From an uncultured Oscillospiraceae bacterium (lineage in GTDB: Bacteria; Bacillota; Clostridia; Oscillospirales; Oscillospiraceae), in the NCBI GenBank assembly GCA_944385365.1, contig CALWWW010000001.1:62001-126000 (forward strand): DNA of 64,000 nucleotides, in the 5' to 3' direction. Below are positions 8,186 to 59,497 of the stretch, piece after piece; position 1 is the first letter of the stretch, and every line of letters starts with the position of its first letter. The translations under genes and the position numbers were made by a program. Below the pieces are notes generated by a model that saw nothing but the letters and a program-made list of their open reading frames with translations, was not told the DNA's origin and searched no databases.

Positions 8186-8361
8186 AAAAGTTTTACTCGA
8201 TTTTTTTCAAAAAATCGCGGGGTCCAGGGGCAGAGCCCCGGTCGCGCCGCGCACGGCGCGAAATCTCCAAGCGTCCAAAGCGCCATCCGCAGATGGCGCA
8301 ATCCCCGGCCAATGGCCATGGTCCCCGCCGCCGCCCCCGTGGGGTGGATGGCGGGGACCAT
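8186..8361 (+). repeat. Structured hairpin element, copy 1 (plus orientation)
   Basis: Begins with the shared end AAAAGTTTTACTCG (8186-8199) and the hairpin CGATTTTTTT/AAAAAATCG, then CCAGGGG-CAGAG-CCCCGG (8224-8241), TCGCGCC-6-GGCGCGA (8242-8261), a spacer, GCGCCAT-6-ATGGCGC (8280-8299), and a distal long hairpin GGTCCCCGCC...GGCGGGGACC (8318-8361). Same order as the copies at 8605-8836, 22541-22721 and 47461-47665. No coding potential recognised. Together with the next two features it accounts for the 835-base gap 8077-8911. Confidence 0.8.
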
Positions 8362-8401
8362 CTGCTAACCCACGAACACAAACGCACCAACAACAACGGA
8401 C

Positions 8402-8592
8402 GTAGGGCGGGACCTGCATGTCCCGCCGCAGTGCCGCACTGCCGACCACCACCAGCGCAGGGGCCGGCATCCTTGACGGCCCCGGATGGGGTGCAGTTTG
8501 GGCGCGTCAGGGATGCCGCGCCCTACGAACGATAATCAGAAAACCGATTGGTTCCACCCTGTAGGGCGGGGGCTTGCCCCCGCCGCCGATAG
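8402..8592. repeat. Cluster of GTAGGG hairpin repeats
   Basis: Three units lie in a row. First, GTAGGGCGGGAC-CTGCAT-GTCCCGCC (8402-8427). Second, a facing pair with conserved loop GCATCCTTGA or its complement (8459-8526): GGGGCCG...CGGCCCC and GGGCGCG...CGCGCCC, ending CCCTAC. Third, GTAGGGCGGGGGC-TTG-CCCCCGCC (8562-8585). The same family occurs at 22439-22505, 44714-44782, 44838-44916 and 55524-55594. It sits between two facing copies of the larger hairpin element. Confidence 0.75.
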
Positions 8593-8604
8593 AGGGTACG
8601 CAAG

Positions 8605-8836
8605 AAGGCCACCGCCCGCCACCCGCATAGGGGTGGGGGCGGTGGCCTTACGGCTTGCGCCCTGGGGATTGCGCCCGTTGCGACGGGCGCTTGGGAACGA
8701 TGGGGATTTTCGCGCCGTGCGCGGCGCGGGTGTTTCGCTGGCTGCGGCCAGCGGGTGTTTCGCCCGCTGCGGCGGGCGACCAAAGGCGCTGCCTTTGGAA
8801 ACCGCGATTTTTTGAAAAAAATCGAGTAAAACTTTT
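8605..8836 (-). repeat. Structured hairpin element, copy 2 (minus orientation)
   Basis: Read from right to left it has the same order as copy 1: end sequence and T-tract hairpin (8836-8801), CCAAAGG-5-CCTTTGG (8780-8798), then three consecutive TCGC...GCGA-type hairpins (8760-8779, 8735-8754, 8710-8729), the hairpin GCGCCCG-6-CGGGCGC (8671-8690), and the distal hairpin AAGGCCACCGCCC...GGTGGCCTT (8605-8649). Stems differ from the other copies but stay paired. Confidence 0.8.
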
Positions 8837-8872: not shown

Positions 8873-8908
8873 AACCGGGGCCTGCCGCTTTAGCGGCAAG
8901 CCCCGGTT
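8873..8908 (-). terminator. Terminator of the WG/SLH protein gene
   Basis: ACCGGGGC-T-TGCCGC stem with its complement around a TTTA loop (8874-8907); on the minus strand it starts 4 nt after the TTA stop region at 8912 and runs into GTTTTTG. Intrinsic terminator. Confidence 0.8.
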
Positions 8909-8911
8909 CTC

Positions 8912-10801
8912 TTATTGCAATGCTTCGTACAGGCGGCAGACGGTCAGATACGCCTGCTGCCGGGTATAATTGCCCAGCGGGGAGAACGTATTGGCAGAAG
9001 TTCCGTTCATAACCCCCATGGCGCTGACATAGTCCACACCGGCCTGGGCATATCCGGCGATGGCATCCCGGTCGGTGAACGCCGCGGCGGTACCGCCGCT
9101 CTCCGTCTTGCCCAAATACTGGCCGGTCCGCAGAAGCATAACGGCGGCGTCCTGCCGGGTCAGCAGACCGTAGGGGTCAAACGTACCGTTGCCCTTGCCG
9201 TTGATGATGCCCAGGGCATTGGCCACCAAAACGTCCTCGCTGTTGGCGTCGGTGAACGGATAGGCGGTCACCAGGTCCGTCATGGTCTTGCCGGTGGCTT
9301 CCATTACCAGCTCTTCGGCAGTTTTTCCGGTCTCGGTGGTAATCAGTTCCACGGCCAGGGCGGCAAATTCAGCCCGCGTGATATTGGCCTGATACTGATT
9401 TTGCAGGTCCATGGGGATCAGACCGGCCTCAATGGCCCGGACGACTTCCCCATAGGCCCAGCTGTCCATTTCCGACGGCTGGGGCAGGTCGGCGGTGTAG
9501 TCCATGGTCATAAACCCATAGTTTCCATCCTGTTCCACTACTACGATGCGTTCCGGCGTAAAGACCGCCAGACTGTCCGTACCCTCGGGGAAATAGATGG
9601 AGGTATCCACGCTGTCGGAGCCGGGGACCTCGTTGCCGTACCGGTCAATGCAGAAAGCGCGGCCATTTTTCACCGCCACGCACAGGCCCTCGTTGTAGCC
9701 GCTGAGGGTGTCGTATTGGAACGGAACCACCACACGGTTGGCTGTGTCGATAACGCCCCATTTGCCCCCCTGCTTGGCCGCAGCCAATCCCTCATGGAAG
9801 AGCCGCAGGGAATCATAGGCAAAGGGAATCACCGTAGCGCCGTTTTTGTTGATGCCGCCCCACTTGCCGTCCATGCTCTGCACCACGGCGATGCCGTCGT
9901 TGAACACCTTGTATTCCGTCAGGGGGCCGCCGACATAAAAATCCTTGTATTGGGCGGGAATCACCATTTTGCCGCTGCGGTCCATAAAGCCCCACGCGCC
10001 GGCGAAATTCAGCGCTTCCGGATAGCACAGGGCCGGGGCCATGCCCTGGTTGAAGGGCCGGAGGGCGGCCACCTGGTAGTTGTCCTCGCTGCTGAGCACC
10101 ACTTTGCCGGTGGCGTCCAGCACACAGAATCCAGCCGCGCCCTCGGTATATCCCACAAATACGCCCTCATTATAGGCCAGGCTGGCCATATTCCATCCGA
10201 AATCCAGGCGGTTGCCCTGGCGGTCATAGACCAGGTTCTCCGGTTCCTCCAGATGGACATAGCCTTCCAAATTCAGATAGCCGTTGTAATAGCAGGCCTC
10301 GAAGAGCTGCTGATCGACGGAACTGCAAAGGCCGAAGGCGGGCTGTTCCTCGTAGCCGCCCTCCTGGGTCTCCTCGTCGTAGACATAGGCGGGAGCCATC
10401 AGAGGTGTCTCGTTGCCCTCAGCGTCGATGATGTACCACACATAGACGTCGGCAGGACCGTCCTCATAGACACGGTTGCCCCCCTGGTCCAGTTCACCGG
10501 TGGGGTGCCACACATCCCGCTGCTCTTGCTTGCCCACCAGGGCCAGCCCCTCCCGGAACAGGTACGCTTTATCGTACTGGAACGGAATCACCGTCTCGCC
10601 GGTCTCGTCGATATATCCCCACTTGCCGTTCTCCTTGACGGCGGCCAATCCCTCATTGAACTGTCCGGCATCCTCATATTGGGCCTCGATGAGGGTGGTG
10701 AAAGTCACCTGGGACGCCGACACCGGCAGGACCGACGCTGCCAGCGTCCCCACAGCCAGCAGCAATCCCAAAAGTTTGCGGAGGAGTTTTTGGTTGCGCA
10801 T
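8912..10801 (-). CDS. Secreted WG-repeat protein with C-terminal SLH domains
   Basis: 629 residues from ATG 10801, preceded by AAAGGTGG. The N-terminus 'MRNQKLLRKLLGLLLAVG' continues to 'PVSASQ', a clear Sec signal peptide with cleavage after SAS. Residues about 40-440 contain WG (KWG) repeats: 'FNEGLAAVKENGKWGYID', 'AWGFMDRSGKMVIP', 'MDGKWGGINKNGATVIP', 'QGGKWGVIDTANRVVVP', with 'NEGLCVAV'-like linkers. The last 180 residues hold about three S-layer homology units ('ITRAEFAALAVELI', 'GKGNGTFDPYGLLTRQDAA', 'ANTFSPLGNYTRQQAYLTV') that bind secondary cell wall polymer. Surface-exposed, probably ligand-binding or structural; no catalytic motif seen. Divergent from the ATPase gene across a 176-bp region with a perfect dyad. 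Confidence 0.85.
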   Translation of the reverse strand: MRNQKLLRKLLGLLLAVGTLAASVLPVSASQVTFTTLIEAQYEDAGQFNEGLAAVKENGKWGYIDETGETVIPFQYDKAYLFREGLALVGKQEQRDVWHPTGELDQGGNRVYEDGPADVYVWYIIDAEGNETPLMAPAYVYDEETQEGGYEEQPAFGLCSSVDQQLFEACYYNGYLNLEGYVHLEEPENLVYDRQGNRLDFGWNMASLAYNEGVFVGYTEGAAGFCVLDATGKVVLSSEDNYQVAALRPFNQGMAPALCYPEALNFAGAWGFMDRSGKMVIPAQYKDFYVGGPLTEYKVFNDGIAVVQSMDGKWGGINKNGATVIPFAYDSLRLFHEGLAAAKQGGKWGVIDTANRVVVPFQYDTLSGYNEGLCVAVKNGRAFCIDRYGNEVPGSDSVDTSIYFPEGTDSLAVFTPERIVVVEQDGNYGFMTMDYTADLPQPSEMDSWAYGEVVRAIEAGLIPMDLQNQYQANITRAEFAALAVELITTETGKTAEELVMEATGKTMTDLVTAYPFTDANSEDVLVANALGIINGKGNGTFDPYGLLTRQDAAVMLLRTGQYLGKTESGGTAAAFTDRDAIAGYAQAGVDYVSAMGVMNGTSANTFSPLGNYTRQQAYLTVCRLYEALQ

Positions 10802-21652: not shown

Positions 21653-22417
21653 ATGGAGCATTCCACTTCCACCGTGCCCCAGGGACGCGCCCCCATGTCT
21701 CCCATCCGAAAACGGTATTGGATTGAGCTGGTGATCCGCTGTATCATCTTTCTGTTTTGCGTCCTGCTGTGGCTGCGCCACCCGTCATCCTTTGATATTT
21801 TGTACGGTATGCGCTTCTTCTCCCACTTTTCCGTGCTGCATCTGCTGTGGCTGGTGTGGGTCCTGGATATGCTGTGCCAGCTGATTCCCGCCAAGCGGCA
21901 AATCGCCCTGGGGTCCCAAAAGCTGTTCCAGCAGCGATTCCGGCCCATTCGGGAAAAAATCAATCACCAGGCTTTGCGGGATTATATCGTCTCCACCACC
22001 AAATCCGCCTACAAGGTGATGGTGCTGTGGGTGGCCTTCGGCGCAGTCCAGGGGCTGCTGTATCACCTGGGGATTCTCAGCCGCAGTATGATGTTTTTGT
22101 TGTCGGCGGCGTTCTATGTCTGCGACCTGATCTGCGTTCTCATCTGGTGCCCGTTCCGGCTGATGATGAAAAACCGCTGCTGTACCACCTGCCGCATCTT
22201 CAACTGGGACCATCTGATGATGTTTACGCCGCTGTTCTTTGTCCCCAGCTTCTATTCCTGGAGTTTGTGTTTTCTGTCGGTGGTGGTCTTCTGCATGTGG
22301 GAGCTGAGCGTCCTGCTGCACCCGGAACGGTTCTGGGAGCAGTCCAACGAGGCATTGAAGTGTTCCAACTGCACCGATAAACTCTGTACCCAATATTGCC
22401 AAAAGCTGCGAAAGTAA
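21653..22417 (+). CDS. Hypothetical integral membrane protein with cysteine pairs
   Basis: 254 residues; ATG 21653 follows AAGGAGG. I do not recognise the family. Five or six hydrophobic segments are visible: about 24-40 ('LVIRCIIFLFCVLLWL'), 58-76, 118-136 ('MVLWVAFGAVQGLLYHLG'), 142-162 and 195-225. Between the last two lies 'NRCCTTCRIFNWDHLMMFTP', and the C-terminal tail, probably cytoplasmic, has 'KCSNCTDKLCTQYC'. The four-cysteine tail looks like a metal site (C-x2-C-x4-C-x3-C). It has its own strong promoter and stands alone between the bile-salt-hydrolase-like gene and a repeat block. Function unknown. Confidence 0.8.
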   Translation: MEHSTSTVPQGRAPMSPIRKRYWIELVIRCIIFLFCVLLWLRHPSSFDILYGMRFFSHFSVLHLLWLVWVLDMLCQLIPAKRQIALGSQKLFQQRFRPIREKINHQALRDYIVSTTKSAYKVMVLWVAFGAVQGLLYHLGILSRSMMFLLSAAFYVCDLICVLIWCPFRLMMKNRCCTTCRIFNWDHLMMFTPLFFVPSFYSWSLCFLSVVVFCMWELSVLLHPERFWEQSNEALKCSNCTDKLCTQYCQKLRK

Positions 22418-22438
22418 CAAACTCGGCACTGGGCATCC

Positions 22439-22505
22439 GTAGGGTGCGGCATCCTTGACGCGCCCTACGCGCATTCCATCCGGGGCCGTCAGGGATGCCG
22501 GCCCC
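22439..22505. repeat. GTAGGG hairpin repeat pair
   Basis: GTAGGGTGCGGCATCCTTGA then CGCGCCCTAC (22439-22468), and GGGGCCG-TCAGGGATGC-CGGCCCC (22482-22505). Same facing-hairpin family as at 8459-8526, 44714-44782 and 55524-55594. Placed between the membrane protein gene and element copy 3. Confidence 0.75.
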
Positions 22506-22540
22506 GGCAGACTGCAACAGCGGTTAACACACCAAAATAT

Positions 22541-22721
22541 AAAAGTTTTTACTCGATTTTTTTACAAAAAAATCGCAGAATCCAGAGACAGCGTCTCTGG
22601 TCGCCCGTCGCAACGGGCGAAATACCCCATCGTCCCAAACCGCCATCCGCAGATGGCGGAACCCCCGGCAAAGCCGAAGGCCGCCGTCCCCACCCCTACG
22701 CGGGTGGCGGACGGCGGCCTT
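22541..22721 (+). repeat. Structured hairpin element, copy 3 (plus orientation)
   Basis: Shared end AAAAGTTTTTACTCG with T/A hairpin (22541-22577), CCAGAGA-CAGCG-TCTCTGG (22582-22600), TCGCCCG-6-CGGGCGA (22601-22620), CGCCAT-6-ATGGCG (22641-22658), and distal AAGGCCGCCGTCC...GGACGGCGGCCTT (22677-22721). Full length, alone, 15 nt from the carB stop codon. With the preceding repeat it fills the 319-base gap 22418-22736. Confidence 0.8.
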
Positions 22722-22736: not shown

Positions 22737-25700
22737 TTACTGTTCGTCGATGGTGGACACCGAGAAGGAAATCTCCTCCAGGGTCCCCAGGAGCATCCGC
22801 ACCGTGTCCAGGGACGTGAACATGGTCACGTTGTTTTCCACGGCGCAGCGGCGGATGGCATAGCCATCCTGGTAGTGGATACCGGAATTGATGGCGCGGG
22901 TGTTGAGGATATAGCTGGCCTCGCCCCGGCGGATGGTCCGCAAAATCTCGTCGCTGCCCTCGCTGAGCTTGCCCAGGACCCGGACGCGGATGCCGTGGGC
23001 TTTCAGCTTTTCGGCGGTGCCGAAGGTGGCGGCAATATTGTAGCCCAGGTTGTAGAACCGCTTGACCAGGGGCAGAACTTCGTCCTTGTCCTCGTCGGCC
23101 ACGGTGACCACCACGGTGCCGTGGTCCTTGACACTGACACCGCTGGCCTTGAGTGCCTTATACAGGGCGCGGTTCAGGTTCACATCGTAGCCGATGGCCT
23201 CGCCGGTGGACTTCATTTCGGGGGACAGATAGGCGTCGAGACCGGCGATCTTGGAGAAGGAGAACGCCGGGACCTTCACATAATAGCGCTGCTTCTCTCT
23301 CGGATACAACTCCCGGAAGCCCTGCTCCCGGAGACTGTGGCCCAGAATGACCTTGGTGGCGATATCGGCCAGGGAATAGCCGGTGGCTTTGGACAGGAAA
23401 GGAACGGTCCGGGAGGAACGGGGGTTGACCTCGATGACATAGACGTTCTCGTTCTTATCCACAATGAACTGGATATTATACAGGCCCACGATGCCGATGC
23501 CCAGGCCCAGCTTGCGGGTGTAGTCCAGAATGGTGTCCTTGACCTTCTGAGAGATGGAAAAGGTGGGGTACACGCTGATGGAGTCGCCGGAGTGGATGCC
23601 GGTCCGCTCCACCAGTTCCATGATGCCGGGGACAAACACATCGGTACCGTCACAGATGGCGTCCACTTCCAGCTCCTTGCCCACAATATACTTGTCGACC
23701 AGGACCGGCTGTTCCTCGTTGATGGAAACGGCGGTTTGCAGGTACGTCTTCAAATCCTGGTCCTTGGAGACGATCTGCATGGCCCGGCCGCCCAAAACGT
23801 AGCTGGGCCGCACCAGCACCGGATAGCCGATACGGTTGGCCACCCGGATGCCGTCTTCGATATTGGTGACGGCCTCGCCGGTGGGCTGGGGAATCTTCAA
23901 TTCCTGCATGACCCGCTCGAAGGCGTCGCGGTTTTCGGCCTTTTCGATGGCGGCGAAATCGGTGCCGATGATTTTCACGCCCCGCTTCATCAGGGGTTCC
24001 GCCAGATTGATGGCCGTCTGGCCGCCCAGGGAGGCAATGACGCCGATGGGCTGTTCCAGATCGATGACGTTCATCACGTCCTCCACCGTCAGGGGTTCAA
24101 AGTACAGCTTGTCGGAACAGGTGTAATCGGTGGAAACGGTTTCCGGGTTGTTGTTGATGATGATGGCCTCGTAACCGCTGGCCTTGATGGTCTGGACAGC
24201 GTGGACCGTGGAGTAATCGAACTCCACACCCTGGCCGATGCGGATGGGGCCGGAACCCAGGACCACGATCTTCTTGTGGTCGGAGACAATGGACTCGTTC
24301 TCCTGCTCGTAGGTGGAGTAGAAGTACGGCACATAGCTGTCGAACTCGGCGGCGCAGGTGTCGATCATCTTATAGACCGGGACAATACCGGCGGCTTTGC
24401 GCTTTTCGCAGATGTCCAGCTCCGTGGTGTCCCACAGCTTGGCGATATACTTGTCGGAGAAGCCCATGCGCTTGGCGCTCCACAGCACATCCAAATCGCC
24501 CACGTTGGATTTGAGGGCGTGTTCACAGTCGATGATGTTCTTGATCTTGTCCAGGAACAGCATATCGATCTTGGTGGCGTTGCAGATGACGCCCAGGTCG
24601 GTGCCGTGGTAAATCAGCTCGGCAATGGCAAAAATCCGGTCGTCGGTGCCAATCTGGATATAGTCCAGCAGCTCCTGGGGCCCCATGATGTCAAACTTGG
24701 CCATATGCAGATGACACACGCCAGTCTCCAGGGAACGGACGGCCTTGAGCAGGGATTCCTCGATGGTGCGGCCCACGGCCATAACCTCGCCGGTGGCCTT
24801 CATCTGGGTGGACAGGGCGTTGGAGGCGTCGGCGAACTTGTCAAAGGGGAACCGGGGCATCTTGGTGACCACATAGTCCAGGGACGGCTCGAAGCTGGCG
24901 GGGGTGTTGGCCAGCTGAATCTCGTCCAGGTGCATACCCACGGCGATTTTGGCGGAGACCCGAGCGATGGGGTAGCCGCTGGCCTTGGAAGCCAGAGCCG
25001 AGGAACGGGACACGCGGGGGTTGACCTCGATGAGGTAATAGCGGAAGGAAGCCGGGTCCAGGGCAAACTGGACGTTACAGCCGCCCTCGATTTTCAAGGC
25101 GCGAATCAGCTTCAACGCGCTGTCGCGGAGCAGGTGGTATTCCTTGTTGGTCAGGGTCTGGCTGGGGGCCACCACGATGGAGTCGCCGGTGTGGATGCCC
25201 ACGGGGTCGATGTTCTCCATATTACAGATGGTGATGGCCGTGTCGTTGGCGTCGCGGATGACCTCATACTCGATTTCCTTGTAACCCTTGATGCTTTTTT
25301 CCACCAGGACCTGATGGACGGGAGACAGGGACAGGGCGTTTTTCAGGATTTCGCGGCATTCCTCTTCATTGTCGGCAAAGCCGCCGCCGGTGCCGCCCAG
25401 GGTAAAGGCGGGACGCAGCACCACAGGGTAGCCGATTTCCTCGGCGGCTTTCAAGCCCTCGTCCATGGAATTGGCGATAATGGAGGGCAGGACCGGCTCG
25501 CCCAGCTGCTGGCACAGCTCTTTGAACAGCTCCCGGTCCTCTGCCTGACGGATGGAGTCGCTGGACGTACCCAGCATTTCCACGCCGCACTCCTTGAGGA
25601 CGCCCATCTTTTCCAGCTCCATAGCCAGATTCAAACCGGTCTGGCCGCCGATGCCGGGAATCAGGGCGTCGGGCCGCTCCACCCGGATAATGCGGGCGGC

Positions 25701-25919
25701 GTACTCCGCCGTCAGGGGTTCCATATAGACCTTGTCGGCAATGGAGGTGTCGGTCATGATGGTGGCCGGGTTGGAGTTGGCCAGCAAAACCTCATAGCCC
25801 TCCTCTTTCAGGGCAAGGCACGCCTGGGTGCCGGCGTAGTCGAACTCGGCGGCCTGTCCGATGACGATGGGGCCGGAGCCGATGACCATGACTTTGCGAA
25901 TGTCTGTTCTCTTAGGCAT
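22737..25919 (-). CDS. carB: Carbamoyl phosphate synthase large subunit
   Basis: 1060 residues, full length. Two homologous ATP-grasp halves are seen: the first begins '[20 protein letters not shown]', the second at about 550 with '[20 protein letters not shown]'. Each has a '[11 protein letters not shown]' or '[15 protein letters not shown]' nucleotide loop. The C-terminal 130 residues (MGS-like allosteric domain, '[19 protein letters not shown]') bind effectors such as UMP or ornithine. It makes carbamoyl phosphate from bicarbonate, ammonia delivered by CarA, and two ATP, for both pyrimidine and arginine synthesis. Its start overlaps the carA stop by 8 bp. Confidence 0.97.
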
Positions 25920-33847: not shown

Positions 33848-35899
33848 TTATTCCAGCACGTCGGAACCATTGCCGGGATCGGCGGTCGTGCTGCCGTTGC
33901 CCTGGTCCGTTGTGGTACCGCCAGTGCCAGTATCCGTGCCGCCGGTACCAGTACTACCGCCGGTGCCGGTATCCGTGCCGCCGGTACCGGTACTACCGCC
34001 GGTGCCGGTGTCCGTGCCGCTAGTGCCGGTATCACCGCCGGTGCCGGTGTTCGTGCCGCCGGTACCCGTATCCGTACCGGTGCCCGTGCCGGGCTCGGTC
34101 GGCGTCGTCGGCTCCTCCGGTACCTCTTCCTCCTGCTTGCCGATGACCGTCACACGGTCCCGCTTCTGGTAGGTGCTGTTGGGGAATTGGACCTTCTCCC
34201 AATCGGAGACCGGGTTGCCGTCGGCGTCCAGATACCGCTTATAGGTGACGGTCTTGTAACCGGTGTAAGGCGTGACTGTAACCTGCTTGTAGTCGGCAGG
34301 CTTGGACTCGTCTACCTGGGTCACGTCCTTCCACTGGGTGGTGGAAATCGTTTTGAAATCCAGATCCACCGTGTACTCGCTTTCCTTGGTGCCCACCAGA
34401 CCAATATGCACCTTGCCGTCTTTCAGATAGGCATCGATGCGGATGGGGTTCTGGGTGGAATTGGAGAACTTGAAGTCCACATTGCTGCCCCAGTAGATGG
34501 TGGCATCCATACCCAGCGGCACATAGTCCACGGTGTACATGTGCTCCAGCCGCTCCACAATGTTCAGATCGGCTTTCAGTGCACTATAGTAGATGGTGGA
34601 AGCCACCTGACAGATACCGCCGCCCAGTTCCGGCGTGGAGGTGCCACTGACGAAAGCAATGGCCGGCTGATAGCCCTTGGCTGCCGTCCGCTCACCGACG
34701 ATATCGTTAAAGGAGAACACATCGCCGGGGTTCAGGATGGTGCCGTTGATGGCCTTACAGGCCAAATCCAGGTTGGTGGTACGGCCGGGGTTGTAAGGGT
34801 ACGACGTATCCGCAGAGCCCAGCACGTCATGGAACAATGTCTCCTCCAGCTTGGCCCGTGTGACCTCCGGCTCCACCGCCGACAGGGTGATGGACAAATC
34901 GGTGCCCTCTTCGGCCATGTCCTGCTTCTGCTTGGCGGCAGCCAGGTCGAAGCCGTAGCCCTCCACCTCGTCGACAATTTCCTTTTTGTCCTTGTCGTAG
35001 TAGGCGTCGGCCATGTCGGTGCACATCTCTTCATAGAGGGCGTCCAGGTCCACCTGGGTATAGCGGGTCTCCTCGTAGGTGTACTCCAGGGGTGTGAAAT
35101 CGTTGTTCATATAGGCGGTCATGATGGCGTCATAGAGACCGTCGGCGTCCAGACTTCTATCGCTGGTGCCCACATGGATGATAACCTCCGTGGGGATGGT
35201 CTCTTTGACAGTCTCGCCCTCCTTGCCGTCCTCCGCGGGCTGCTCCACCTCGGACTCCACCACTTCATAGGTGGAATCCTTCCGCTCCGACTTGACTTCT
35301 GCGGCGGTGGCGTCGATGGTGGAGCGGATATACTCCTCGTCGATGCTCAGGGCGCTGCCCATGTCCACCGTGTGCAGCACTTCCGTGGCGGCGGTGAGGG
35401 ACTGTTTCAGCGTCTGGAAAATACCGCCGTCACGGCCGTAGTTCCAGGCGGCTTCCACGGCCTTGTCCACGTCCACGCTGACCTTGGTATCGGCGGGGGC
35501 AAAGGACAGGGTGCGGTCCGGCAGCGTCACCGTCAGCGTCTCGGTACCGTAGGTGGCATCGACAGCCTTCTGGACAGCAGCCTTGGCCTCTTCCCGGCTC
35601 ATGCCGCCCACATCCACACCGGCCACACTGACGCCGGGCAGAATATTGCCGCCGCTGTGGACTGCCAGGGCATAGCCCAAGCCGCACAAAATCACCAGGG
35701 CCACCAGCGTCGCCGCGGTGATGGCGACGATCTTCCCCTTGCCGGCGCCCTGCTTTTTGGCGGGCTTGACAACGGGTTGGGCGGTTCTGTGCGTCTGCGC
35801 GGCTTTGGGTGCTTTGGTCACTTTGGCCGTATGCTTCTGGGCAGCCGTGGGTTTCGATTGGGCAGGTTTTTGATTCCTCGGTTTTTCAAATTTTCCCAT
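33848..35899 (-). CDS. VanW family membrane-anchored wall protein with peptidoglycan-binding and low-complexity tail
   Basis: 683 residues. Residues 1-55 are basic, Lys/Gln/Ala-rich and cytoplasmic; one membrane segment at about 57-80; then extracellular. About 85-330 resembles paired PG_binding_4 domains ('VSVAGVDVGGMSREEAKAAV'). The VanW domain is at about 355-490: 'YNPGRTTNLDLACKAING', 'PGDVFSFNDIVGERTAAKGY', 'ELGGGICQVASTIYYSALKA'. A G5-like segment follows ('KTVTYKRYLDADGNPVSDW'). The last 75 residues are a Gly/Thr-rich tail made of four 13-residue units (G-T-D-T-G-T-G-G-S-T-G-T-G). VanW proteins are of unclear function, some linked to glycopeptide resistance loci. Own promoter at 35949-35977; no sortase signal. 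Confidence 0.88.
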   Translation of the reverse strand: MGKFEKPRNQKPAQSKPTAAQKHTAKVTKAPKAAQTHRTAQPVVKPAKKQGAGKGKIVAITAATLVALVILCGLGYALAVHSGGNILPGVSVAGVDVGGMSREEAKAAVQKAVDATYGTETLTVTLPDRTLSFAPADTKVSVDVDKAVEAAWNYGRDGGIFQTLKQSLTAATEVLHTVDMGSALSIDEEYIRSTIDATAAEVKSERKDSTYEVVESEVEQPAEDGKEGETVKETIPTEVIIHVGTSDRSLDADGLYDAIMTAYMNNDFTPLEYTYEETRYTQVDLDALYEEMCTDMADAYYDKDKKEIVDEVEGYGFDLAAAKQKQDMAEEGTDLSITLSAVEPEVTRAKLEETLFHDVLGSADTSYPYNPGRTTNLDLACKAINGTILNPGDVFSFNDIVGERTAAKGYQPAIAFVSGTSTPELGGGICQVASTIYYSALKADLNIVERLEHMYTVDYVPLGMDATIYWGSNVDFKFSNSTQNPIRIDAYLKDGKVHIGLVGTKESEYTVDLDFKTISTTQWKDVTQVDESKPADYKQVTVTPYTGYKTVTYKRYLDADGNPVSDWEKVQFPNSTYQKRDRVTVIGKQEEEVPEEPTTPTEPGTGTGTDTGTGGTNTGTGGDTGTSGTDTGTGGSTGTGGTDTGTGGSTGTGGTDTGTGGTTTDQGNGSTTADPGNGSDVLE

Positions 35900-44686: not shown

Positions 44687-44713
44687 TGGCAGGAGCCAAC
44701 TGTTCCCATTGGC

Positions 44714-44782
44714 GTAGGGGCCGGCATCCCTGACGGCCCCAGGTGGAATGCGTCCCGGACGCGTCAAGGATGCCGCGTCCTA
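44714..44782. repeat. GTAGGG hairpin repeat pair
   Basis: GTAGGGGCCGGCATCCCTGA then CGGCCCC (44714-44740) faces GGACGCG-TCAAGGATGC-CGCGTCCTAC (44757-44782). Same loops as the copies at 8459-8526 and 55524-55594, but stem bases GGACGCG/CGCGTCC are changed on both arms. Part of the 327-base gene-free gap 44687-45013. Confidence 0.75.
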
Positions 44783-44837
44783 CAAAACGGTTACGGGTTC
44801 GCCCCAAGACAGGTAATCGATTGGACTGTACTGCGCG

Positions 44838-44916
44838 GCGGGACACATAGGTCCCGCCCTACGTCTCTTGTCGGCAGTCCGTTCGTGTTCGTAGGGCGGC
44901 ACCTGCGTGTGCCGCC
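44838..44916. repeat. GTAGGG hairpins with the short-loop type
   Basis: Two facing hairpins: GGCGGGAC-6-GTCCCGCC type (44838-44862, read on minus strand as GTAGGGCGGGAC) and GTAGGGCGGCAC-CTGCGT-GTGCCGCC (44891-44916). Stem C-G/G-C exchanges keep the pairing. Related to 8402-8427. Confidence 0.7.
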
Positions 44917-46777: not shown

Positions 46778-47338
46778 ATGGGAATCATCGAACTGTTTCT
46801 GATCGCCGTGGGACTGTCCATGGACGCCTTTGCCGTCTCGGTCTGCAAGGGTCTTTCCGCCGGTAAGGTGCGGCTGCGCCACGCCCTGATTGCCGGACTG
46901 TGGTTCGGCGGCTTTCAGGCATTGATGCCCTTTCTGGGCTGGCTGCTGGGCGTCCGCTTTCAATCGCTTATCACCAATGTGGACCACTGGATTGCCTTTG
47001 TGCTGCTGGCCGTCATCGGCATCAATATGATCCGGGAGTCCCGGAAGGACGACGAGGAGTGTGTGGAAGCCGATTTTTCCTGTAAGTCCATGTTTCCCCT
47101 GGCCATTGCCACCAGCATTGACGCCCTGACCGTGGGCATCACCTTTGCCTTTTTGCAGGTGGATATTGTTCCCGCCGTCACCTTTATCGGTGTAACGACC
47201 TTTGTTCTGTCGGCCATCGGCGTACGGGCCGGCGGTATTGTGGGCGAAAAGGGCAAAAGCCGGGCGGAGCTGGCCGGCGGCGTGGTTCTGGTGCTGCTGG
47301 GATGTAAAATTCTTCTGGAGCACCTGGGAATCCTGTAA
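46778..47338 (+). CDS. mntP: Manganese efflux pump MntP
   Basis: 186 residues from ATG 46778 (GGGAGG 7 nt upstream). Six hydrophobic segments; conserved acidic membrane motifs 'GLSMDAFAVSVCKG' (TM1, about 13-26) and 'ATSIDALTVGITFAFL' (TM4, about 108-123), plus 'LIAGLWFGGFQALMPFLGW'. These are the DUF204/MntP signatures. It exports Mn2+ and protects from manganese excess. The yybP-ykoY riboswitch directly upstream confirms the metal. Element copy 4 begins 12 nt after its stop codon. Confidence 0.95.
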   Translation: MGIIELFLIAVGLSMDAFAVSVCKGLSAGKVRLRHALIAGLWFGGFQALMPFLGWLLGVRFQSLITNVDHWIAFVLLAVIGINMIRESRKDDEECVEADFSCKSMFPLAIATSIDALTVGITFAFLQVDIVPAVTFIGVTTFVLSAIGVRAGGIVGEKGKSRAELAGGVVLVLLGCKILLEHLGIL

Positions 47339-47349
47339 GTGCCAAACAT

Positions 47350-47427
47350 AAAAAGTTTTACTCGATTTTTTTCAAAAAATCGCAGGGTCCAGGGGCGGCG
47401 CCCCGGTCGCGCCTCGCAAGGCGCGAA
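47350..47427 (+). repeat. Structured hairpin element, copy 4 (truncated, plus orientation)
   Basis: AAAAGTTTTACTCG end and T/A hairpin, CCAGGGG-CGGCG-CCCCGG type stem (47389-47406) and TCGCGCC-6-GGCGCGA (47407-47426), then the similarity ends. It faces copy 5, giving an inverted-end structure of about 315 bp that fills the gap between mntP and the DMT transporter gene. Confidence 0.75.
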
Positions 47428-47460
47428 ACCCCCACGTTACAATAGATTTTCTGTGCGCAG

Positions 47461-47665
47461 AAGGCCCCCCGGCTGCCACCCGTTTTGGGTGACGCCGGGG
47501 GGCCTTGGCCGTTGGCCGGAGATTCCGCCATCTGCGGATGGCGGTTTGGGACGCTGGGGGATTTCGCTGGCTGCGGCCAGCGGGAATTTCGCCCGCTGCG
47601 GCGGGCGACCAAAGGCTCTGCCTTTGGAAACCGCGATTTTTTGAAAAAAATCGAGTAAAACTTTA
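47461..47665 (-). repeat. Structured hairpin element, copy 5 (minus orientation)
   Basis: Read right to left: end sequence and T/A hairpin (47665-47630), CCAAAGG-CTCTG-CCTTTGG (47609-47627), two TCGC hairpins (47589-47608 and 47564-47583), CGCCAT-6-ATGGCG (about 47526-47543) and distal AAGGCCCCCCGGC...GCCGGGGGGCCTT (47461-47506). The element's outer end overlaps the stop codon of the DMT transporter gene. Confidence 0.8.
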
Positions 47666-48538
47666 ATTTTCCGTTTTTGCAACGCTTTTTCTTGCGCCGA
47701 GCAGCTGCGACACCAGCAGGCCCGCCGCGATGACCAATCCGCCCCGGAACGATGCGGCGGAAGCCGTCTGACCCAATGCCACATCCAGCGCCACACCGGT
47801 AAACACCTGACCCACAAAGGACAGAAGCGTCAGACGGAACGCCGACACCCTGGGTACGGTGATATTGAACAGCAGTACCGTGGTCACGCCCAGCATACCG
47901 CCGCAGTACATCCACGGTTCCATGGTACCCGCCGCCGGTGTGGTCCACTGGCCCACCAGGATCAGCAGGACTGCGCAGATGGGCAAGCCCACCAGATGGT
48001 TGACAAAGGACCCGGCCAAGGGGCTGGTCTCCGACGCCAGACGGGCGTTGACCATCCGGGACAGGACCACCGTCACACCGGCCCCCAGCGACAGCAGCAC
48101 CGCCAGAATCGACTGGCTCACGCTGCCGTCCAGCATCAGGAAAATACCCACAGGGGCGCTGATCAGGGCCACAGCCACCGACCGGTCCACCGGCCGTTTG
48201 GGCGCGCCCAGCCAGCCGAACCGGTCCAGCAGCACCGAGGTGATGGTCTGGCCCAGAAGGCCCAGCGCCACAATGCTGGTCATGGTAATATGGCCGAAAG
48301 CATAGTTATTGAACAAGGTGGACAGCACACCAATCGCGCCGCCCAGGTACGCCCAGAACGGAGCCTTGGCAAACACTTTACACCGTCCCGCCAGACAGAG
48401 GACGCCGGAAAACACCGTACCCACCACATGGATGATGACGGCGGCGGCGTAGTTGCCGTAACCGGCGGTCAGCTGGCCGTTCCACAGAATCATCACGGCG
48501 ATGACCACACCAGTCAGCAGGGAGAGAATGGTATCCAT
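47663..48538 (-). CDS. DMT-superfamily transporter (YdcZ/DUF606 tandem type)
   Basis: 291 residues from ATG 48538 with AGGAGGTG upstream. About ten membrane segments in two similar halves, each opening with a short hydrophobic run and 'GQL'/'NARL' loop: 'LTGVVIAVMILWNGQLTAGY' and 'LLSLGAGVTVVLSRMVNARL'. Segments such as 'GGAIGVLSTLFNNYAFGHIT' and 'GGMLGVTTVLLFNITVPRV' are the DUF606 (YdcZ) pattern. Substrate unknown; family members export small metabolites. It is divergent from a Crp/Fnr-type regulator gene across 114 bp, which probably controls it. Its stop codon touches repeat element copy 5. Confidence 0.85.
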   Translation of the reverse strand: MDTILSLLTGVVIAVMILWNGQLTAGYGNYAAAVIIHVVGTVFSGVLCLAGRCKVFAKAPFWAYLGGAIGVLSTLFNNYAFGHITMTSIVALGLLGQTITSVLLDRFGWLGAPKRPVDRSVAVALISAPVGIFLMLDGSVSQSILAVLLSLGAGVTVVLSRMVNARLASETSPLAGSFVNHLVGLPICAVLLILVGQWTTPAAGTMEPWMYCGGMLGVTTVLLFNITVPRVSAFRLTLLSFVGQVFTGVALDVALGQTASAASFRGGLVIAAGLLVSQLLGARKSVAKTEN

Positions 48539-48601
48539 GACAGCACCTCCTGAGAATTTGGCCCCATTGTACCATAGCCCCGCCGCCGGACAGTAGGACA
48601 C

Positions 48602-55482: not shown

Positions 55483-55523
55483 AAGCACAAACCTCCTTAT
55501 GGATGGGTATGGCACCCTCTCTC

Positions 55524-55594
55524 GTAGGGCGCGGCATCCTTGACGCGCCCTGAATCGTACCCCGGCCGGGGCCGTCAGGGATGCCGGCCCCTAC
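55524..55594. repeat. GTAGGG hairpin repeat pair
   Basis: GTAGGGCGCGGCATCCTTGA then CGCGCCC (55524-55550) faces GGGGCCG-TCAGGGATGC-CGGCCCCTAC (55568-55594). This is the most regular copy of the pair and defines the family: GTAGGG, variable stem, loop GCATCCTTGA, stem, spacer of about 18, and the mirror unit. It lies in the gap between rsmF (stop 55614) and walR (start 55482). Confidence 0.8.
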
Positions 55595-55613
55595 GGCAGC
55601 GGGAATGGACGGA

Positions 55614-59263: not shown

Positions 59264-59298
59264 CCAAGGGGGCGTCGCCTATGGCGGCGCCCCCTTGC
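59264..59298. repeat. CAAGGGGGCG hairpin repeat, copy 1
   Basis: CAAGGGGGCGTCGCC-TAT-GGCGGCGCCCCCTTG: long stem with few mismatches. Nearly the same sequence returns at 59460-59497, so the two bracket about 160 bp. Part of the 310-base gene-free gap 59248-59557. Confidence 0.75.
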
Positions 59299-59300
59299 AG

Positions 59301-59459: not shown

Positions 59460-59497
59460 GCAAGGAGGCGTCCGCCTATGGCGGCGCCCCCTTGCAC
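59460..59497. repeat. CAAGGGGGCG hairpin repeat, copy 2
   Basis: GCAAGGAGGCGTCCGCC-TAT-GGCGGCGCCCCCTTGC, close to copy 1 at 59264-59298. Its right end contains the TTGCAC that serves as -35 for mnmG. Confidence 0.75.

Follow-up and report, generated by a model that had tools for sequence, protein, structure and literature searches.

A 64,000-nt stretch of the genome of an uncultured Oscillospiraceae bacterium (the window; its genome is called the source genome, G000) contains five copies of a sequence built from consecutive hairpins, whose stems change from copy to copy and stay paired. The copies raise the question of what keeps the folds while the letters change, and whether the element works as RNA or as folded DNA. 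The first-pass annotation had located the five copies and read their double changes as a sign of selection on structure; the analysis below extends the comparison to the rest of the genome, to its genus, and to other families of the Oscillospirales.

Anatomy, modules, and distribution of the element

Parts of the element are named from its AT-rich head, which is followed by hairpin 1 (CGATTTTTTTCAAAAAATCG) and hairpin 2 (pattern CCA..GGC-AGA/AGC-GCC..TGG). Next come an array of one to five hairpin-3 modules and a spacer, then hairpin 4, in many cases a small GGC..GCC hairpin, and last the distal hairpin. Hairpins 1, 2, and 3 form the core, and an arm is ~80 to 250 nt long. The five window copies lie where the first-pass annotation placed them and make up two pairs with outward-facing heads (8186/8836 and 47351/47664) plus a single arm (Table 1). 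The stem arms listed there are complementary as described; the RNA fold of 22541-22721 reaches -94.4 kcal/mol (z -10.7) and that of the minus strand of 8605-8836 has a z of -7.6, each being equalled by 0 of 200 shuffles. The copy regarded as truncated, at 47350-47427, is indeed an incomplete arm. The proposed fixed order of hairpins is right in its overall layout, but hairpin 3 is a tandem array of one to three modules in the window arms: a-c-d in the 8605-8836 arm, a-c in the 47461-47665 arm, and a single module in the other three. A distal hairpin of the form AAGGCC...GGCCTT had been described as common to the copies, but that of the 8186 arm is of another kind, ATGGTCCCC...GGGGACCAT. Two types of distal hairpin can be distinguished, AAGG (n = 41) and ATGG (n = 12). 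As for features of intrinsic terminators, the 41 AAGG-type hairpins are followed by 3 to 7 T in 8 nt, of which the first two T pair with the AA of the stem, and a run of 4 to 5 T follows the ATGG type in only 2 of 12.

Table 1. Arms of the hairpin element in the window and the genes next to them
Feature	Position	Strand	Parts and context
Arm 1 of heads-outward pair 1	8186..8361	+	head 8186-8199; hairpin 1 8198-8217; hairpin 2 8224-8241; module d 8243-8260; hairpin 4 8280-8299; distal hairpin (ATGG type) 8318-8361
Arm 2 of pair 1	8605..8836	-	head 8823-8836; hairpin 1 8805-8824; hairpin 2 8780-8798; modules a 8761-8778, c 8736-8753, d 8711-8728; hairpin 4 8671-8690; distal terminator-like hairpin 8605-8649
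WG-repeat/SLH-domain gene	8912..10801	-	pair 1 lies 3' of gene; separate terminator-like hairpin (~8877-8911) between
Convergent gene, no Pfam match	21653..22417	+	3' end faces head of 22541 arm, 123 nt off
Single arm between convergent genes	22541..22721	+	hairpin 1 22554-22575; hairpin 2 22582-22600; module b 22602-22619; hairpin 4 22640-22659; distal terminator-like hairpin 22677-22721, then TTCC
carB-like gene (carbamoyl-phosphate synthase large chain)	22737..25919	-	3' end faces tail of 22541 arm; guide to orthologous sites in genus
MntP-like gene	46778..47338	+	stop codon ~12 nt before head of pair 2
Arm 1 of pair 2	47351..47427	+	head 47351-47364; hairpin 1 47363-47382; hairpin 2 47389-47406; module f 47408-47425; without hairpin 4 and distal hairpin
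Arm 2 of pair 2	47461..47665	-	hairpin 1 47634-47653; hairpin 2 47609-47627; modules a 47590-47607, c 47565-47582; hairpin 4 47525-47544; distal hairpin 47461-47506
YdcZ-like exporter gene	47663..48601	-	stop codon overlaps other head of pair 2

All hairpins 3 and 4 of the five window copies carry a CGCA tetraloop, and the window together with the stretches L009 to L045 contains 166 CGCA hairpins whose arms measure 6 bp or more. Among 61 arms of the source genome, the modules are nearly all exact copies of six CGCA-loop alleles (10 arms have one variant within 2 bases of an allele, and 1 arm is unassigned); one, two, three, four, or five modules are present in 22, 16, 15, 5, and 3 of these arms, respectively. 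Arms with the same modules also occur in records of Candidatus Avoscillospira avistercoris and of the uncultured Oscillospiraceae bin BRZ_KB bin69, and the loop is conserved in 71 of 74 rows of heads from other families. The modules bear AAAnnCC linkers and GAAA, and their centers lie 25 nt apart in 115 of 120 cases over all arms. Identical neighbors are nearly missing. With variants scored as their allele, arms with unassigned modules dropped, and runs cut at irregular spacing, there were 0 of 73 in the source genome against 17.0 expected, a value that none of 20,000 permutations reached, and 1 of 118 across all 116 arms with assigned modules against 27.4 expected. The deficit is weaker two steps apart (4 of 51 against 11.8). 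Such a pattern would arise if tandem units of the same allele were lost by deletion between them, or if mispairing of like hairpins were selected against.

In some heads the loop of hairpin 1 holds a separate, apparently structured sequence of ~170 nt (CTGTGGGGCAACTTACCGCC...GGCGCGTTGCCCAAATCG); it was seen in L012, L013, L016 to L018, L020 (where it is shorter), L022, L023, L031, L038, L040, L044, and L210. A similar sequence stands free near the 3' end of L028, and a deleted remnant lies in L214.

Copies were counted with two covariance models, R1 for the head (built from 39 sequences) and R2 for the tail (42 sequences). In the source genome (2.58 Mb, 64 contigs), R1 found at least 150 head copies and R2 at least 69 matches, and a BLAST-type DNA search returned 93 match rows, many of which are a second match on one copy. 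A covariance-model search of related genomes, as the first-pass annotation had proposed, recovered the core with R1 in 38 of 295 sampled genomes of the order (27 of 149 genera), the source genome included, and in 2 of 299 genomes of a phylum-wide sample, namely, the source genome and one weak match (E 4.6e-4). Ten other bearers gave 26, 32, 68, 129, 88, 63, 35, 55, 86, and 86 matches, and seven genomes of the genus gave at least 150, 119, 117, 21, 17, 0, and 0 with R1. Only this genus bears the element among the sampled members of its own family, on which both models agree; R2 matched 3 of 60 genomes, all of the source genus, and 0 of 30 family members from other genera.

Beyond hairpin 3, copies in other families often continue with variants of a stretch like GCGCAGGAGGGGTGAATT and with another hairpin (e.g., AACAGTCC-GGT-GGACTGTT); this was seen in L231, L233, L236, L237, L239, L243, L245, L246, and L252 to L255. 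The full element in those families may have a conserved tail of its own. Upstream of the head, records of Faecivivens (L098, L100, L106, L108, L111, and others) share ~75 conserved nt (GGAAACGTAAGAATCGGCGCTGGCGTTAAAGTGAC...), and other conserved parts occupy this position in some other genera.

Covariation and the scarcity of G-U pairs

Selection on structure, or its maintenance by other means, is strongly supported by the stems, in line with the first reading of the double changes; judged by shuffled and slid-partner controls and by the Rfam search, neither of the outcomes named there as a refutation appeared. With shuffles and slid partners as controls and relatedness left uncorrected, 98.1% of cells were paired in the head alignment of the source genome (39 rows, 28 distinct) versus 88.7% after shuffling, and 56 cells carried double changes versus 17.9; the tail alignment (42 rows) gave 98.9% versus 91.0% and 68 double-change cells versus 12.3. 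For 84 heads from other families (74 distinct rows), whose alignment was fitted to the model and hence leans towards it, 98.4% of stem cells were paired versus 79.3% shuffled and 39 to 55% with slid partners; double-change cells numbered 356 versus 99.7, and 18 of 22 pairs contained double changes. A smaller set of 31 such heads, fitted in the same way and leaning likewise, had double changes at 20 of 22 pairs. Hairpin 1 is near-constant in the source genome and varies freely elsewhere (e.g., CAAGCTTTTT/AAAAGCTTG and CGGCCTTTTT/AAAAGGCCG). The number of further pair types was no higher than in shuffles for the source-genome heads, the other-family heads, or the hairpin-3 stems of other genera described below. 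The double changes had been noted at four independent stems; within the window they are mostly the re-use of about six ready-made alleles that occur across the genome, so they do not count as independent events, and it is the other families that supply independence.

Of the 69 hairpins that follow 83 heads from other genera, 47 have a CGCA loop; they yield 25 distinct stems, one of which was omitted for its register. The remaining 24 distinct hairpin-3 stems were 97.9% paired versus 71.7% shuffled, with 57 double-change cells versus 16.7 and not a single one-sided standard change. This near-lack of one-sided intermediates is what would be seen if compensatory changes arose without selection, through template switching that copies one arm of a quasi-palindrome from the other and writes both at once, followed by recombination that shuffles finished hairpins. 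The discrete allele set common to many loci fits this account, as does the loss of identical neighbors (0/73 and 1/118), which deletion between tandem identical units would produce. Arm-copying alone gives no explanation for the conservation of loops, hairpin order, and head motif across families, however, and other hairpins of the same genomes, such as tRNA stems and the distal hairpin, do contain G-U pairs. We consider it rather improbable that template switching and recombination account for the stems.

If a single RNA strand were under selection, G-U pairs should be common among the changed pairs. They are nearly absent: hairpins 1 and 3 of the other-family heads contain 3 G-U and 11 unpaired cells of 1,246, alongside 316 double changes, whereas the stems of 21 distinct tRNAs from the same DNA contain 35 G-U of 447 pairs (Fisher p ~8e-18), counting only pairs bracketed by the tRNA finder, so that mismatches may be left out. 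Pairing therefore appears to be kept as it would be on both DNA strands. The remaining mismatches agree with this, since G-T and A-C mismatches on the head-to-tail strand of CGCA hairpins number 4/3, 3/1, and 1/4 in three sets (8 and 8 in total), as expected if both strands count. Hairpin 2 is noisier, with 8 G-U, 12 A-C, and 19 other of 504 cells order-wide and 2, 0, and 15 of 189 in the source genome, partly because a fixed window overruns short stems. The distal hairpin departs from this pattern, having 26 G-U versus 4 A-C on the head-to-tail strand (Fisher p 0.013 against the 8 and 8 of the CGCA hairpins), although nine of the 26 G-U cells fall at one pair and are probably inherited. It thus resembles an RNA terminator used on one strand, in contrast to hairpins 1, 3, and 4, whose palindromes are kept exact. 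Selection on one RNA strand as the sole cause of the pairing was rejected on account of the G-U deficit. Where RNA and folded DNA had both been offered as options, the scarcity of G-U speaks for folded DNA or for RNA made from both strands.

Covariation is usually taken as proof of RNA structure, and here 316 double changes against 3 G-U pairs in hairpins 1 and 3 point to pairing on both strands of DNA. The element is a warning for covariation-based RNA discovery and a test bed for the upkeep of perfect palindromes.

Placement at gene ends and turnover between related genomes

The position of the element relative to genes follows a rule that the earlier annotation did not contain. Genes were called by a simple codon-model caller made for this analysis, and five single-arm units at contig edges were omitted. 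In the source genome, 51 of 57 element ends have the 3' end of a gene on their head side (25 of 27 for single arms and 26 of 30 for pair ends), while a gene 3' end lies at 44% of gap sides in the 230-kb contig (binomial p ~1e-12). Convergent genes flank 27 of 42 units with two called neighbors, compared with 21 of 106 gaps; single arms are divided into 16 convergent, 10 co-directional, and 1 divergent, and pairs into 11 convergent and 4 co-directional. A recount on more copies gave a 3' end on the head side in 55 cases versus 6 in the source genome. The stop codon lies within 40 nt of the head in 43 of 55 cases there and in 11 of 11 in each of the related genomes G006 and G002 (heads less than 250 nt from the start of a stretch being dropped), and in several copies the head itself supplies the TAA stop. 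Nine copies read by eye (class B: L211 to L213, L216 to L219, and two in L220) abut a stop codon with their other side and are read tail to head.

The same placement is found in other families, where matches at E of 1e-8 or below, in stretches picked from the best matches, have a 3' end on the head side in 62 of 82 cases, 29 of those 62 lying within 40 nt of the stop. Single arms there number 25 convergent, 28 co-directional, and 2 divergent, and pairs 9 convergent and 2 co-directional, with 6 edge units left out. Several of the pairs lie 2 to 32 nt from both convergent stop codons, and in genome G143 several fill the entire gap between convergent stops, e.g., at 3 and 20 nt or 19 and 20 nt. 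The 83 heads from other genera chosen by an exact 28-mer are placed more loosely, with a 3' end in 56 of the 76 that have a called gene and a median stop distance of ~108 nt.

These observations lead us to propose, with a confidence just short of even, that the element belongs to an order-wide family of interspersed hairpin cassettes that serve as the transcribed 3' end (untranslated region and terminator) of genes in both directions. A cassette would typically sit directly behind a stop codon, and the RNA would pass hairpins 1 and 2, the variable hairpin-3 array, and hairpin 4 before reaching the terminator-like distal hairpin; class B copies would be read in the opposite direction. One or two arms filling the gap between convergent genes would cause both strands to be transcribed into structured 3' untranslated regions, which would terminate the transcripts and probably protect them against decay from the 3' end. 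Hairpins that must fold in RNA from either strand would retain only Watson-Crick changes, because a G-U on one strand is an A-C on the other, and modules would be gained and lost as whole 25-nt units. The proposal is favored by the short distance to most stop codons, where another terminator would hardly fit, by the terminator-like distal hairpin with its strand bias, by convergent transcription as a possible explanation of the Watson-Crick-only changes, and by the plain terminator-like hairpins that stand in place of the element in relatives at two sites, described below. Against it, many copies are found between co-directional genes, where transcription of one strand would suffice, few ATGG-type distal hairpins are followed by T runs, and the 28-mer-chosen heads of other genera are less close to stops. 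Parasitic repeats that are merely tolerated at convergent 3' ends would be enriched there too, as PMC3049150 argues for pneumococcal repeats.

Comparison with related genomes shows rapid change. The 230-kb contig of the source genome has 13 heads versus 2 in the syntenic contig of G006, most aligned blocks being 90 to 95% identical; of nine units compared, G006 shares two and is without six, the ninth having no syntenic cover. The two shared arms differ in module number, with a-c in the source genome versus a in G006 at 47.5 kb and d-c-a versus d at 201 kb. The pair at 8186-8836 is absent from both G006 and G002, as is the 22541 arm, which is replaced by a plain GC-rich terminator-like hairpin (read by eye). 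The pair at 47351-47665 corresponds to a single arm in G006 and to a bare head-to-head palindrome of ~45 nt in G002; this palindrome (L083, around 1902) consists of two head halves and looks like the result of a deletion between two copies of hairpin 1. Inspection by eye found a clean empty site in G006 for the 132-kb arm, with a near-duplicate of ~20 bp, and a plain terminator-like hairpin, REP-like repeats, and a stretch of a Y1-type gene at the 153-kb site. That stretch, a Y1-type transposase sequence with REP-like repeats on both sides, lies at 75884-76123 of G006 contig 2 (L201). REP-like repeats also occupy the 163- and 208-kb sites in G006. A plain terminator-like hairpin thus stands in place of the element at 2 of the 8 sites compared (22.5 and 153 kb). 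At two compared sites, the right end of the 8186-8836 pair and the left end of the 163-kb pair, the stop codon is set apart from the head by a terminator-like hairpin of its own, so the element is not needed for termination there, which speaks against a general replacement of terminators. By eye, the orthologous sites show no regular target duplication; boundaries differ, and at several sites the relative carries other repeats or a deletion.

The large number of copies and their marked turnover (13 versus 2 heads, with 6 of 8 units absent in G006) would also be seen with a nonautonomous mobile element that moves as folded single-stranded DNA. A putative nuclease recognizing the hairpins by their fixed CGCA loop and fixed flanks would keep the palindromes perfect, gene ends would be tolerated or targeted, and no service to the host would be needed. 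The patchy presence of the element, confined in its own family to one genus among sampled members, the lack of strand bias of G-U in hairpins 3 and 4, and the loop conserved in 71 of 74 rows are consistent with such movement. Features of miniature inverted-repeat elements are mixed: the two heads of a pair are inverted relative to each other but a single arm has just one, and one compared site has a near-duplicate flank (a parent insertion sequence was sought via PF01797 only). No transposase is tied to the element, the Y1 domain (PF01797) being missing from 8 of 12 tested bearers, one with 129 copies; the single near-duplicate of ~20 bp at 132 kb (by eye) is not a regular target duplication; and the tight spacing to stop codons exceeds what tolerance alone predicts. 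Movement as folded DNA is the main rival to the 3'-end cassette, and although we think it on balance unlikely, both can be true together.

A further reading, somewhat less probable still, is an undescribed order-wide element class living at stop codons whose exact palindromes are kept by a DNA-level process (a hairpin-recognizing nuclease or arm-copying), and which replaces native terminators at some sites while spreading, so becoming a standard 3'-end module of many genes in several Oscillospirales families.

If the cassette proposal is correct, many genes of the order end in a repeated, spreading, and unnamed 3'-end cassette, the annotation of terminators and 3' untranslated regions in the order is incomplete, and gene ends change fast between close species.

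Relation to known RNAs and repeats

The first-pass annotation knew of no named family with this layout, and the searches agree with it. Rfam 15 at gathering score found three tRNAs in the window and nothing at the elements; six order-wide loci searched at E up to 0.5 gave two weak and non-credible matches, MicX (29.7 of 75 bits) and Atu_C4 (25.7 of 80 bits). Phage and plasmid collections searched in distant mode, with the L243 head and the first 120 nt of the 22541 arm, respectively, gave no match. Searches of the open-access PMC literature, some of them with element sequences as text, listed no title or abstract that names the family. The stable multi-hairpin fold and massive covariation would suit a trans-acting small RNA or a riboswitch-like regulator present in many copies. 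We regard this as highly improbable, and it was rejected on copy number (26 to at least 150 in the eleven most fully counted bearers) and on placement, which is 3' rather than 5'; the variable number of hairpins, the near-absence of G-U, and the lack of an Rfam family also stand against it.

The source genome contains a second, REP-like repeat family, distinct from the hairpin elements, which starts with GTAGGG (GTAGGGGCCGGCATCC..TGACGGCCCC and GTAGGGCGGGACCTG..CCCGCC). In the window it occurs at 8362-8604 (the center of pair 1), 22437-22511 (near the 22541 arm), 44712-44895, and 55522-55605. Two further repeats of the window are a tandem repeat with a 39-bp period inside long reading frames (33877-34110) and an identical 24-base direct repeat whose copies, 197 bases apart, lie at 59276-59299 and 59473-59496. 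Three matches to PF01797 (Y1 transposase) were found in the source genome, among them locus L208, which has inverted GTAG-type repeats on both sides; its Y1-type gene is RAYT-like.

Inverted DNA uptake sequences of Neisseria and Haemophilus act as terminators, the uptake sequences being ~10 to 12 bp long. They resemble the hairpin element as repeated sequences that double as terminators and differ in size, the element being an array of ~80 to 250 nt per arm. REP/BIME repeats, as the relevant passages of PMC2817692 describe them, likewise consist of small palindromes in mosaics at high copy number, with complementary changes preserved, and are associated with GTAG-type heads and RAYT transposases. 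This likeness, together with the GTAG-type repeats and Y1-type genes in the same genome, could suggest that the hairpin elements are REP/BIME units mobilized by an IS200/IS605-like RAYT. The GTAG-type head at the foot of the palindrome, a REP/BIME hallmark, is absent from the modules, however, and the Y1-type locus L208 is flanked by the other, GTAG-type family. Of 12 genomes that bear the element, 8 lack PF01797, and of 10 genomes with no match to the element models, 5 have it. On these grounds a RAYT or Y1 transposase was rejected as the general mover, and membership in the REP/BIME group has very little to recommend it.

The SPRITE repeat of Streptococcus pneumoniae is similar in being a terminator-like repeat near convergent 3' ends that was possibly co-opted as a terminator, but in the account given in the pertinent section of PMC3049150 it is one 18-bp duplex with a U-rich tract, whereas the element has several ordered hairpins and a conserved head. 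A parallel in layout is the BOX element of S. pneumoniae, a modular repeat of the form boxA-boxBn-boxC that the corresponding section of PMC3049150 places in pneumococcus and some other streptococci. Going by that section, the two share an interspersed distribution, a modular plan in which constant ends enclose a tandem middle of variable length, an RNA fold, array length that differs between strains, and enrichment between convergent genes. The one to five tandem modules give the hairpin element an A-Bn-C-like layout, a likeness of layout only. The element differs in that its core spans families of one order, BOX being streptococcal in the same section of PMC3049150, and in that its middle modules are near-perfect palindromes drawn from an allele set with no identical neighbors and its end abuts stop codons. 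We file the hairpin element among the modular interspersed palindromic repeats, within which it looks like an unnamed family.
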